From assembly GCF_021631985.1 (NCBI RefSeq), contig NZ_CP070225.1:2108001-2172000 (forward strand): DNA of 64,000 nucleotides, read 5' to 3'. Both the position numbers and the translations under genes were made by a program. The first letter of the stretch is position 1. Every line of letters starts with the position of its first letter. The notes beneath the pieces were generated by a model. It was not told where the DNA came from and did no database searches. It worked only from the letters and a program-made list of their open reading frames with translations. Origin of the DNA: Sandaracinus amylolyticus (GTDB taxonomy: Bacteria; Myxococcota_A; Polyangia; Polyangiales; Sandaracinaceae). Of the stretch, positions 55,889 through 61,972 are shown piece after piece.

Positions 55889-55924
55889 CCGATTCGATGC
55901 GAGCGCCGAGTCCGGGTCCGAGTG

Positions 55925-55983
<59 letters not shown>

Positions 55984-56576: not shown

Positions 56577-56667
56577 CGAGGCCTCGGACTCGGACTCGCC
56601 CTCGCCCTCGGCCTCGGACTCGGACTCGGCCTCGGACTCGGCCTCGGACTCGGACTCGGCCTCGCCC
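56577..56667. repeat. hexamer tandem array, CTCGGA / CTCGGC / CTCGCC
   Basis: About 15 hexamers in the 352-bp gap between the four-helix-bundle gene and the 56714 gene. Their unit ACTCGG is the reverse complement of the CCGAGT unit in the array at 55925. Apart from this array and the inverted repeat at 56368-56442, the gap holds nothing recognised. Confidence 0.9.
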
Positions 56668-57687: not shown

Positions 57688-57848
57688 CCTCTGACCGTGC
57701 TCCCCGAACGGCCGGCGCGGGCTGCGCGACCGGGGGGCGAGGCCCTGGCCGCGTAGGGTCCGACGCACCGGTGCGTAGAGGTCGCGCACTTGAAACGGCT
57801 GCTCTCGAAGGGTACGAAGACCGGCCGTTTTCGCCGGGGAAGAACCGA

Positions 57849-59090
57849 ATGAGCTGGATCAAGGACAAGGCCCACGCCGAGCTCGCGCGCATCCGTGAGG
57901 CCAAGGAGAAGCAGGTCTATCCGTTCTTCCGCCCGTTCGAGACGGGAGGCCTGCACACGACGATCGCGGGTCAGCCGCTCGTCAACTTCAGCTCGAACGA
58001 CTACCTCGGGCTCACCACGCACCCGAAGGTGAAGGAAGCGGCGAAGGCCGCGGTCGATCGCTACGCGTGCGGCCTCTCGAGCTCGCGCGTGCAGGCGACG
58101 ACGGTGGCGCACGTCGAGCTCGAGGAGCGCCTCGCCAACTGGTTCAAGCTCCCGAAGTGCCTGGTCACGACGACGGGCTACCAGGCGATGGTCGGCACGA
58201 TCATGTCGCTCGCCGACATCGACACCACGCTGGTGCTCGATCAGCTCTCGCACGCGTGCATCCTCGACGGCTCGTTCCTCGCGGCGGGCGTGCCGAAGAG
58301 CGGCGCCGAGATCCGCTTCTTCAACCACAACAGCGCGAAGTCGCTCGACCGCGTGCTGCGCACGAAGGAGCGCAAGAACGCGCTCGTGTGCATCGAGGGC
58401 GTGTACTCGCTCGACGGCGATCAGGCGAAGATCGCGGAGCTGATCGAGGTGTGCGCGAAGCACGACGCGTGTCTCGTGCTCGACGACGCCCACGGCACCG
58501 GCACGCTCGGCGTGCACGGCCGCGGCATCCTCGAGGAGCACGGGCTGGAGGGGAAGTTCCCGAGCGAGAAGCTCGTCGTCGTCTCCACGTTCAGCAAGAC
58601 GTTCGGCGGCATCGGCGGGATCATCCTCGGCGACGAGGAAGTGGTCGATCACATCAAGCACCGCGCGCGCTCGTTCCTGTTCAGCGCGACCCTGCCGGTG
58701 CCGATCGTCGCAGCGGCGAGCACGATCCTCGACATGCTCGAGGAGAACGGCCCGCAGCTGGTCGGCGAGCTGCGCGAGAAGGCGGGCTACATGCGGAAGT
58801 CGCTGAAGGAGATCGGGTTCGATCTCGGGCACAGCGACACCCACATCATGCCGGTGATGTGCCGCGAGGAGCGCAAGGCGCTCTTCATGCACGTCGCGCT
58901 GATGGAGAACGGCGTGATGATGGTGCCGATCACGTACCCGGGCGTGAAGCACGGCGAGGAGCGGCTTCGTCTGAACGTGACGCGCGGGCACTCCCGTGAG
59001 GACATGGACAAGTGCCTCGATCTCCTGAAGACGTACGGCGAGGCGTTCTTCGTTCTCTCGGGGGAAGAGATCGGAGCGCTCGAGGTCTGA
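57849..59090 (+). CDS. alpha-oxoamine synthase family PLP enzyme
   Basis: 413 residues from ATG 57849. Family hallmarks: NFSSNDYLGLTTHPKV, LDQLSHACILDG, CIEGVYSLDGD, LDDAHGTGTLG and the PLP-lysine motif STFSKTFGGIGG. Members are 8-amino-7-oxononanoate synthase, glycine C-acetyltransferase, 5-aminolevulinate synthase and serine palmitoyltransferase. No biotin, threonine or heme genes are nearby, while two ketosynthase-type genes are, so a lipid (sphingoid-type) role is the favoured but unproven option. Confidence 0.88.
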   Translation: MSWIKDKAHAELARIREAKEKQVYPFFRPFETGGLHTTIAGQPLVNFSSNDYLGLTTHPKVKEAAKAAVDRYACGLSSSRVQATTVAHVELEERLANWFKLPKCLVTTTGYQAMVGTIMSLADIDTTLVLDQLSHACILDGSFLAAGVPKSGAEIRFFNHNSAKSLDRVLRTKERKNALVCIEGVYSLDGDQAKIAELIEVCAKHDACLVLDDAHGTGTLGVHGRGILEEHGLEGKFPSEKLVVVSTFSKTFGGIGGIILGDEEVVDHIKHRARSFLFSATLPVPIVAAASTILDMLEENGPQLVGELREKAGYMRKSLKEIGFDLGHSDTHIMPVMCREERKALFMHVALMENGVMMVPITYPGVKHGEERLRLNVTRGHSREDMDKCLDLLKTYGEAFFVLSGEEIGALEV

Positions 59091-59351: not shown

Positions 59352-60617
59352 TCAGCGATGGAAGGTGAGCACGGCGCCCGGGTCTTCGCGGTCGGACGCG
59401 CCGGTCGCCACCACCGCGAGCGTGCCGTCGGGCAGCGCGGCGACGAAGTAGTCGTTGTAGTGGTGGGTCGAGAGCGCGCGGGCCCACGCGGGCTCGAAGG
59501 TGATCGGATCGAGCCCCATCAGGAATCCGCTCCACTCGTCGTCGGAGAGCGTGGTCCCGGCGATCTCGAGCTCGCCGGTGAAGGGCCGCGCGATGACGAG
59601 CTCGTCGCCGCGGAACGTGGCCTCCGGGCCCCCAGCGTAACCGGTCCACACCCGGGGCCAGGTGTCGCCGACCTGGAGCTGGAGGATCGTGCCGCCCGTC
59701 GTCCCGAGCAGCACCGGGCGTCCGTCGGGATGCATCAACGCGCCGTATTGGTGGTGCCAGCGCCGCGACTCGATCGGCGTGAGCGCGCCGTCGTCGAGCG
59801 ACACCCACGACACGAACGATCCCGCTCGGTCCGCGAAGCCCCCGCCCTCGGCGTCCCGACCGAACAGGAGCGCGCGGTCGCCGTGGATCGCGGCGAAGCT
59901 CACTCCGACGTCGACGTACGGCTCGCCGGCGATCGGCGCGGGCGCGACGAGGTGCCGGGTCGCGAGGTCGTCGGGCGCGAGGATCGCGGCGAAGGGACCG
60001 TGCCGCACGTCGCTCGCTCCGACGCGCCCGGGGCGGCGCATCGATCCGCCGACGACCACCGCGTCGTCCGACGCCGCGATCGCGCGCACGTAGGGAGGCG
60101 GGGACTCGTCGCTCGTGATCGTCGTGCTCGCGAGGACCGTGAGCGCGCGGTCGAAGCGCACGACGGAGAAGGCGTCGGTCACGCAGCCGTCCTCCACCAG
60201 CGCGTACAGATCTCCGCCGGGGTGCGCGGCGAGGCCGTGCACTCCGAACGACGCGCCCGAGCAATCGATCGCGACGGCGCGGGTGCGGCCCTCGGGTGTG
60301 AAGCAGGCGATGAACGCGTCGCCCTGCATCACCTCGAGGAGCTCGTTGGACGCCTCGCGACCCCTGCGGATCCCGCCGAGGCACGCGTCTCCGTCGGCCG
60401 TGGCCACGAGATCCCACACCCCGAACCCGGGCGGCAGCTCGATCGCGCGCGGCACGGCCGGCCCCGCGTCACCCGGCGACGCGGCGTCCGCTTGCGCCCG
60501 CCCAGCGTCGACGTCGAGCTCGAGCGACGACCGGCTCCCGCATCCGAGCACGCACGACAAGAGCAGCCATCCGAGTGGCTGCAGCACGCGGTCCACCGAC
60601 CGCCAAACGGTGTGCAT
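59352..60617 (-). CDS. secreted lipoprotein of unknown function
   Basis: 421 residues from ATG 60617, with a signal peptide and lipobox (CVLGC). The frame extends further upstream into the 42-bp repeat array but is not coding there. The mature part is beta-rich with repeated segments such as VWDLVATADGDACLGGI, HGLAAHPGGDLYALVEDG, VRAIAASDDAVVVGGSM and YGALMHPDGRPVLLGTTGG, suggesting a beta-propeller. Several Cys residues could form disulfides. The function is unknown. Confidence 0.72.
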   Translation of the reverse strand: MHTVWRSVDRVLQPLGWLLLSCVLGCGSRSSLELDVDAGRAQADAASPGDAGPAVPRAIELPPGFGVWDLVATADGDACLGGIRRGREASNELLEVMQGDAFIACFTPEGRTRAVAIDCSGASFGVHGLAAHPGGDLYALVEDGCVTDAFSVVRFDRALTVLASTTITSDESPPPYVRAIAASDDAVVVGGSMRRPGRVGASDVRHGPFAAILAPDDLATRHLVAPAPIAGEPYVDVGVSFAAIHGDRALLFGRDAEGGGFADRAGSFVSWVSLDDGALTPIESRRWHHQYGALMHPDGRPVLLGTTGGTILQLQVGDTWPRVWTGYAGGPEATFRGDELVIARPFTGELEIAGTTLSDDEWSGFLMGLDPITFEPAWARALSTHHYNDYFVAALPDGTLAVVATGASDREDPGAVLTFHR

Positions 60618-60682
60618 CGCGCGGGAGGATACGCGGTGCACCGCCCGACCGGGTCCCCGATGCGAGCAGCGATTCCTCGCCG

Positions 60683-61050
60683 GAACGCTGATCTCGGCGG
60701 TCAGACCGACCCTCGATGCTCCTCCGTCGCCGAGGTCGGCGATCGAGCCGACCCTCGATGCTCCGCCCGAGCCGATCTCGACGATCACGGGACCGGCGGA
60801 GCTCGTCCACCGCTCACCTCAGCGACTACACCGACCCTCGAAGCGCGGCGGACGCTGATCGCAGCGTGCCGCTCGACCCTCGAAGCGCTGCCGTCGTCGA
60901 CCTCGGTGTCTCGCCCGACCCTCGAAGCAGCCGAACGCTGATCTCAGCGATCGCGCCAGCCTCGCGACGCCCCGAACGCTGACCTCAGCGATCCGGCGAC
61001 CCGCGAACCTGCCGATCGCTCAGGTCCGCGATCACCCCGACCCTATCGGG
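60683..61050. repeat. degenerate tandem repeat array with about 42-bp period
   Basis: CGACCCTCGA occurs exactly at 60707, 60749, 60832, 60874 and 60916, with diverged copies near 60791, 60958, 60997 and 61038, all 39-42 bp apart. Most units also hold a diverged version of GCTGATCTCAGC, a small inverted repeat clearest near 60686, 60853, 60936 and 60976. The array fills most of the 497-bp divergent gap between the lipoprotein gene and the 61115 gene. No cas genes or conserved spacers, so it is not CRISPR. Its function is unknown. Confidence 0.85.
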
Positions 61051-61114
61051 CGTCGCGCGCTCTTCTTCGTGCGCAACGCCCCTCGGCTCGCGCCGAAACC
61101 CTGGATCGTGCGGG

Positions 61115-61972
61115 GTGAGCGTCACCGACGTCGCTGCCGCGCTCCTCTCACCGACGAGCAGAGCGATGCCGCGCCCCGGATATCACCGTGCGATCCAGAT
61201 CCGGCCCGAGCCGATCACGTTCGGAAACTACTGCGACGGCGTCCGCCTGGGCGCGAGCCACGTCAAGCCGCTCGCCGGCTCGCTGCGCGCTGCGGCCCCC
61301 GGCGACCTCTCGCCGACCGCGCGGGCGCAGCTCGACACGATCGACGACATCGCGGTCGTGATCGACGACATCCGCACCGCACGCCACGGATCGGCCGCCG
61401 TGAAGCCGGCGTTCGACCTCCTCGGCGCCGCGTTCGGCGCCACGCACGACACGCTGCTCGCGAAGAGCCGACTCCCGGGGCCGAGCGATGGCATCGGTGC
61501 GCGCGCCGCAGCGCTCGACGCGTGTCTGTTCCCGAACGGCCTCGGGTTCATCCGCTGGGACGCGCACGCCGCGTGGTCCGAGGCCGATCGCATCCTGCGG
61601 GTGATCGCGCAGCTCGGCCTCGAGGCGGAGCTCGACGCGATGATCGGTCCCGAGCTCCGCGCCACGGCCATGACGTCGTGCGACGCGCTGCGCGAGGCGC
61701 TCGGGATCGGAAGCGCGCCCCGCGAGACGCCGCGCTCGAAGGCGCTCCAGCAGGCGATGCACGCGTTCTCGCGCGAGGTCAGCCGCTACGCGCGGATGCT
61801 CGCGGCCGACGTCGACACCACCGACACGACCTCCGTCGAGCGGTTCCGGGACGCGGTGATGATCCCGTTCGACACGTTCCGATCGCGCCGGGGCACGCGC
61901 AGGAAACGCACCGACGTCCGAGAGCAGCCCGCGCCCGGAGATCCGTCGACCCGCCCGATCGACGCGCGTTGA
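61115..61972 (+). CDS. unrecognised 285-aa protein
   Basis: From GTG 61115; ATG 61166 (MPRPGYHRAIQ) is an equally good start. Mostly helical and soluble, with no signal peptide. Segments of note are FGNYCDGVRLGASHVKPLAG, QLDTIDDIAVVIDDIRTA and LGFIRWDAHAAWSEADRIL. The tail is basic (RRGTRRKRTD). No family is recognised. It is divergent from the lipoprotein gene across the 42-bp repeat array. Confidence 0.55.
   Translation: MSVTDVAAALLSPTSRAMPRPGYHRAIQIRPEPITFGNYCDGVRLGASHVKPLAGSLRAAAPGDLSPTARAQLDTIDDIAVVIDDIRTARHGSAAVKPAFDLLGAAFGATHDTLLAKSRLPGPSDGIGARAAALDACLFPNGLGFIRWDAHAAWSEADRILRVIAQLGLEAELDAMIGPELRATAMTSCDALREALGIGSAPRETPRSKALQQAMHAFSREVSRYARMLAADVDTTDTTSVERFRDAVMIPFDTFRSRRGTRRKRTDVREQPAPGDPSTRPIDAR

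Follow-up and report, generated by a model that had tools for sequence, protein, structure and literature searches.

Type III toxin-antitoxin systems (ToxIN, CptIN, TenpIN) are stand-alone loci formed by one protein gene and a tandem array of three to six structured units of fixed length, whose sequence varies from locus to locus (PMC8860590). TIGR-Tas loci pair a single helical protein with arrays located upstream and/or downstream, with locus-specific repeats, a unit of about 36-42 and stem-loop variants (PMC12045711). The locus described here, from Sandaracinus amylolyticus, resembles both. As in type III toxin-antitoxin systems, a short tandem array adjoins one protein gene, in this case at 46 of 76 loci in one homolog set and 10 of 20 in another. 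However, ToxN is an endoribonuclease, whereas the protein here is all-helical and has no ToxN/AbiQ-type match (none for ToxN in Pfam, NCBIfam or PADLOC). Also, the ToxI repeats precede the toxin gene in the same orientation, separated from it by a terminator, whereas here the arrays occur on either side and show no terminator pattern. With TIGR-Tas, the locus shares a unit in which two conserved blocks alternate with two variable stretches of 7-8 nt. Nonetheless, in TIGR arrays two repeats of 8-12 nt alternate with variable spacers of about 9 nt, an organization that the array studied here follows only superficially (13-14-nt blocks, 7-8-nt gaps), and most arrays of its family consist of near-identical units devoid of variable spacers. 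Tas proteins have a Nop domain, and none was detected here among the Pfam matches or the Foldseek/VIA lists, the missing fold match being compatible with Nop. Membership in either system is not supported, because neither a ToxN-type ribonuclease nor a Nop domain was detected and variable spacers are mostly absent; the resemblance is one of layout only.

CRISPR loci also present tandem palindromic repeats by a protein gene, but the arrays here have no unique spacers and the protein has no Pfam or PADLOC match. A cognate protein with locus-specific, regularly spaced repeats is likewise found in iterons and centromeres (parC, tubC), whereas the present ones reside on the chromosome, with many in each genome, frequently lie 3' of the gene and are built of 41-44-bp units; no fold known from Rep, ParR or TubR proteins was found. 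The open-licence literature yielded nothing relevant on such arrays in myxobacteria, and we conclude that the protein-plus-array module is previously undescribed.

The window array and its flanking genes

The window, that is, the whole stretch of 64,000 nucleotides that was analyzed, contains at 60683-61050 an array of about nine degenerate units of 39-43 bp each, with no strand assigned. As the sequence-only reading had placed it, the array lies between two divergent genes. On the left it is bounded by a lipoprotein-like gene (59352-60617, minus strand, likely ATG at 60617), which serves as a synteny marker and stands outside the module, and on the right lies the gene of the all-helical protein that we propose as partner of the array (61163-61972, plus strand; 269 aa, or 285 aa with the GTG at 61115 as start). 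Five exact copies of CGACCCTCGA start at 60707, 60749, 60832, 60874 and 60916, with spacings of 42, 83, 42 and 42 bp, in agreement with the earlier claim of five copies at multiples of about 42 bp; elsewhere in the 64 kb, this motif appears exactly once on the plus strand (47323) and never on the minus strand. The proposed register of nine units is also confirmed, since a layout starting at 60683 places units of 43, 43, 41, 42, 41, 40, 41, 39 and 43 bp and each half contains a 42-bp array according to TRF (60693-60787 and 60831-60957). Self-alignment of the tract gives an identity that peaks at lag 42, being 0.47 for the whole tract and 0.57 for the best 160-bp stretch, compared with 0.46 for the best of the shuffled window.

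The unit consensus is CGCTGATCTCAGCG-N7-CGACCCTCGAAGC-N7/8, where N stands for variable bases. Unit 1 (CGCTGATCTCGGCG and CGACCCTCGATGC; 60678-60719, 38.0 bits) is followed by unit 2 (60720-60761), whose palindrome CGCCGAGGTCGGCG carries a compensated change from T-A to C-G, and by unit 3 (60769-60809), the most degraded of all. Units 4 (60803-60844, 34.3 bits), 5 (60845-60886, 38.6 bits) and 6 (60887-60928, 34.4 bits) precede the two units with a perfect 14-bp palindrome, namely unit 7 (60928-60968), with CGCTGATCTCAGCG at 60936-60949, and unit 8 (60969-61009), with CGCTGACCTCAGCG at 60977-60990; the remaining units hold variants of it. Unit 9 (61009-61050) is degraded. All nine were read on the plus strand. 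The recurring mini-palindrome that had been described does recur, as the variants GCTGATCTCGGC, GCTGATCGCAGC, GCTGACCTCAGC and GCTCACCTCAGC, but its exact form GCTGATCTCAGC is present only once. Directly 3' of the array, a weak terminator-like stem with a T-rich tail (61048-61072, plus strand) is probably incidental, because other loci have no such pattern.

A reading in which the tract encodes 14-residue repeats within a protein would be favored by the length of 42 bp, equal to 14 codons, and by the partial openness of the tract in some frames. Nevertheless, units of 39, 40, 41 and 43 bp shift the frame, and neither here nor in the orthologous array of the same-genus sister genome, Sandaracinus sp. 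(G001), is any frame open throughout. Because stops or frame-breaking unit lengths affect all six frames in both arrays, the array is taken as non-coding, as had been claimed before, and the coding reading is refuted with next to nothing left in its favor.

G001 retains both flanking genes with the array between them, so that the array persists in a close relative. Its array is the more regular of the two, with anchor spacings of 42, 42, 42, 41, 41 and 41 bp. The interior units are more alike than those of the window, as if homogenized, whereas the end units match between species, the degraded unit 9 keeping the same place. Retention together with the greater regularity in G001 therefore indicates an array kept with concerted turnover. 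The suggestion of a decaying minisatellite thus stands as regards the degenerate copy in the window, but not as mere decay. A separate observation concerns the G001 ortholog of the helical-protein gene (L038, G001:C1:5373253-5374055), which is split over two frames despite the regular array beside it; it is possibly a pseudogene or a sequencing error.

Dispersal of the window repeat throughout the genome was considered and rejected: its own genome (G000) has one array, isolated 14-mers and one related three-unit array near a paralog. The latter (L039 3031-3138, G000:C1:10134030-10134137) resembles the window array, with the palindrome CGCTAACGTTAGCG and CGACCCTCGAAG, and lies some 1.7 kb 5' of a further paralog, which has a different 42-bp array of its own. 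In relatives, both a scan with a degenerate pattern and a sequence-only unit model gave chance-level matches. Rfam covariance models gave only a chance-level match in the window and none at gathering level in 16 array loci. Elsewhere in the window, tandem repeats of 6 and 12 bp (CCGAGT/CTCGGA type) occur at 55906-55983 and 56583-56664, just 5' of an aminotransferase gene (57771-59090).

A helical-protein family and its arrays across Myxococcota

For the protein of the window branch and for the array, no explanatory match was found in Pfam, Rfam, PADLOC or PDB, and the protein does not reach the Pfam model PF19775 (DUF6261). Nonetheless, a few members of the family collected with its profile (A3) match DUF6261 weakly, and the PF19775 search recovered several of the more distant A3 loci as well as new ones. 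An hhalign comparison of the A3 set with a Myxococcota DUF6261 set (A6), in which eight of eight members match DUF6261, gives 97% and an E value of 2.8e-11. Moreover, AlphaFold models of both sets consist of helices throughout: one very long helix, then shorter ones in similar order. Profile homology and similar helix order therefore identify the window protein as a remote branch, and by this bridge it is best described as a divergent member of the uncharacterized DUF6261 superfamily. Fold searches returned a weak helical-bundle likeness to the sensor domains of TorS and McpS (Z below 8, best Foldseek E value 0.087); kinship with these was discarded, the scores being weak and the likeness taken as a common helical arrangement. 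The AlphaFold model shows no strands and no recognized DNA-binding fold, and family searches linked the protein to neither transposases nor nucleases. The search for phage or plasmid carriage gave no match to the window protein; in a contig search, closer alignment matched three Sandaracinaceae/Polyangia MAG loci.

An autocorrelation scan of paralog and ortholog loci revealed tandem repetition at about 42 bp in most of them, with a sequence that differs at each locus. Among 76 homolog loci across Myxococcota (profile A3), a TRF array of 40-44 bp is located within 1.5 kb in 46, mostly at 3-400 bp. By comparison, such arrays were found in 13 of 298 control tiles of 3.8 kb (1.195 Mb from the same kinds of genomes) and the 395 kb of control sequence from outside G000 and G001 were devoid of any array. 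A test on 620-bp flanks that permitted every lag from 18 to 99 found periods of 40-44 or their doubles in 46 of 67 versus 22 of 956 (Fisher p 1.8e-46), a value that overstates independence because the homologs are mutually related, although repeat sequences are mostly unrelated between loci. The excess is confined to periods 40-44 and their doubles. Also, an independent search of Myxococcota genomes with PF19775 found an array of 41-44 bp within 650 bp in 10 of 20 loci, downstream in nine. The genes of this family and the arrays are associated, and we hold this with high confidence. The window array is thus a degenerate example of a recurrent two-part locus composed of a protein and an array of conserved unit length. 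This is the main point that the sequence-only reading overlooked: the array belongs with the adjacent gene at 61163-61972, because the homologs of that gene are accompanied by arrays that agree in period but differ in sequence.

The unit length is 41 bp in 13 loci, 42 in 22, 43 in 18 and 44 in three. Most arrays of the family are composed of near-identical head-to-tail units, copies often being 90-100% like the consensus. The repeat sequence is specific to the locus, with similarity above chance mainly among close protein relatives (e.g. L036/L043, L042/L047 and L205/L230). Even so, of 50 distinct units, 14 contain the core CGACCC/GGGTCG where 4.9 were expected, a level that no 6-mer reached in 150 shuffled sets. 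The array is almost always upstream of the gene in Sandaracinaceae and downstream in most other families. At several loci (L034, L021, L017, L022, L207, L025 and L273) it begins 2-17 bp 3' of the stop codon, where it should be transcribed and is poorly placed to control a promoter. The module is stand-alone and present in several copies per genome; neither a constant companion gene nor a defence island was found, the neighbors being mixed, unrelated housekeeping genes. PADLOC matches among them are mainly generic kinases, and no Cas family figures among the commonest Pfam/PADLOC matches.

The association is not universal: no array could be detected beside about 40% of homologs, and solo arrays exist with no neighboring homolog. 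At one locus (L222 1452-3312, G001:C1:1377051-1378911), a 1.86-kb segment holding a helical-protein gene, a 42-bp array and one further ORF, read as putatively acetyltransferase-like, is absent from G000, where the flanks adjoin within 16 bp; the ends of this indel show no evident target-site duplication. In G001, a solo array of about 10 units of 41-42 bp (CGTTGATCTCAGCGCTCGGCCAGCTTCGCCGAGCTCGCGAT; L095 1500-1910, G001:C1:4042490-4042900) has only the core TTGATCTCAGCG in common with the window repeat, and no helical-protein homolog lies within its 3.5-kb locus. Random samples of G000 and G001 contain arrays of 41-42 bp as well (L155 9220-9540, L187 3571-3769, L189 6134-6402 and L191 17970-18231). 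The respective 20-kb samples hold no helical-protein homolog, and these arrays perhaps have other partners or are solo. In the draft genome G048, near-identical 42-bp units (GACCTCAGCGCCCGATCGCGCCTCCTCAGCACAAAAAGAACC) are located at the ends of contigs C155, C445, C535 and C630 (L122, L131, L133 and L135), possibly as solo arrays that break the assembly.

Folding, symmetry and the competing explanations

Compared with dinucleotide shuffles, the units show more stable folding (mean z -1.34 for 56 units, p 1e-7) and are also more palindromic (p 1e-5), both strands alike. The comparison of an orthologous pair of arrays, L026 in G000 and L009 in G001, reveals that one stem is identical and the other has changed on both sides, in five of six pairs, and still pairs. 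Pairing is conserved in 93.8% of cells, while all slid controls reach at most 41%. This is strong evidence for selection on pairing or on dyad symmetry, which the swap conserves around the same centre, and it may represent one event. Between the window array and its G001 ortholog, only slight support for compensated pairing is seen. Within arrays, copy-to-copy changes show compensation not beyond chance (11 of 34 versus 25%), and G-U and A-C are even (81 versus 79), with no RNA-strand signature. Within the window's branch, arrays 3' of the gene prefer the sense strand beyond composition (p 0.014); upstream arrays and the DUF6261 set (n = 9) show no such preference, and a strand difference in raw folding energy (p 0.002) disappears over all arrays once composition is controlled. 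Terminators follow no pattern at array ends, terminator-like sites being present in about five of 56 loci and split between strands.

The four-helical-turn period noted in the window is not general, as family arrays have periods of 41, 42, 43 and 44 bp and no sub-period of 10.5 or 21 bp. Together with the placement at the stop codon, the 41- and 43-bp periods lacking a sub-period argue against a phased operator array. Both a protein-binding array and a structured RNA remain live readings of the window array. Our best explanation, with a probability of about 0.42, is that the array and the helical-protein gene form one module in which transcripts of the array present hairpin units as ligands to the protein. 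Where the array begins a few bases past the stop codon, it would be co-transcribed with the gene, and where it is upstream it would have a start of its own. The transcript would be a chain of units of about 42 nt with one or two hairpins each, every unit acting as a ligand of the cognate helical protein, be it as RNA partner, inhibitor or scaffold. A fixed unit length with varying sequence would then reflect the size of an RNA-protein building block. This explanation is supported by the association (46 of 76 and 10 of 20 loci), the excess of folding and palindromes, the L026/L009 swap, the core motif, the arrays next to stop codons and the sense preference. It is weakened by the absence of compensation within arrays, the equality of G-U and A-C, the unreplicated sense preference, the acidic proteins (mean pI 6.2, and 4.7-5.3 in the DUF6261 branch) and the lack of consistent terminators. 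The roughly 40% of homologs with no array, the solo arrays, the swap being one event and the phylogenetic non-independence of the homologs weaken it further. The RNA mechanism as such, a transcribed array whose hairpin units partner the protein, would fall a little short of even odds.

The main rival, which we consider unlikely, is that the units act as DNA, bound in iteron or centromere fashion by the helical protein or by a partner to serve autoregulation, segregation or the anchoring of the nucleoid. Palindromes alike on both strands, copy variation devoid of an RNA-strand signature, sites particular to each locus and common to close relatives, the divergent arrangement in the window and the dyad symmetry kept about the same centre in the L026/L009 swap agree with such binding. 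However, most families other than Sandaracinaceae have the array downstream, as does the DUF6261 set, often 2-17 bp past the stop, and periods of 41, 43 and 44 bp with no sub-period drift from helical phase. Moreover, the protein model has no recognized DNA-binding fold, and the acidity of the proteins, mostly below neutral, is unusual for nucleic-acid binders and argues against simple RNA or DNA binding alike. Somewhat less probable still is that the arrays are passenger minisatellites, produced by slippage or recombination and enriched in tolerant, recently inserted or rearranged intergenic regions, with no function joint with the gene. Concerted evolution with unit turnover, the solo arrays, the presence or absence of the whole module at L222, the homologs devoid of an array and the absence of covariation within arrays are what passengers would show. 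Nonetheless, a period of 40-44 bp constant over many families, for which controls outside Sandaracinus have no preference, its replication with the independent PF19775 profile, the excess of hairpins and palindromes and the common core motif speak against them. Finally, it is improbable that the protein or a trans factor makes or mobilizes the repeats in a RAYT-REP-like way, the arrays marking its activity. Arrays beside the gene and also solo elsewhere, the small window-like array near another paralog and the indel carrying gene and array would fit, but the protein matches no transposase or nuclease family, the arrays are head-to-tail and not dispersed, and the indel ends bear no evident target duplication.

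Significance of the pairing

The significance of the locus rests on the association and on the failure to match known families, not on demonstrated function. The pairing, across a phylum, of one uncharacterized superfamily with arrays of conserved length and diverse sequence has no match among the known systems tested, and pairings of protein and array of this kind led to the recognition of CRISPR, type III toxin-antitoxin and TIGR-Tas loci alike. Tentatively, and with doubt slightly outweighing belief, it may represent an RNA-protein module of a new class, present in Myxococcota in several independent copies per genome, in which an all-helical DUF6261-superfamily protein would act with a cis-encoded hairpin array of about 42-nt units that diversify in sequence between loci at a fixed length, possibly as a toxin-antitoxin, defence or guide-like system. 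One genome provides about 10 natural replicates that differ in their repeats and could serve for specificity tests. Moreover, the pairing gives a domain of unknown function a concrete, testable partner and accounts for a class of myxobacterial intergenic arrays.
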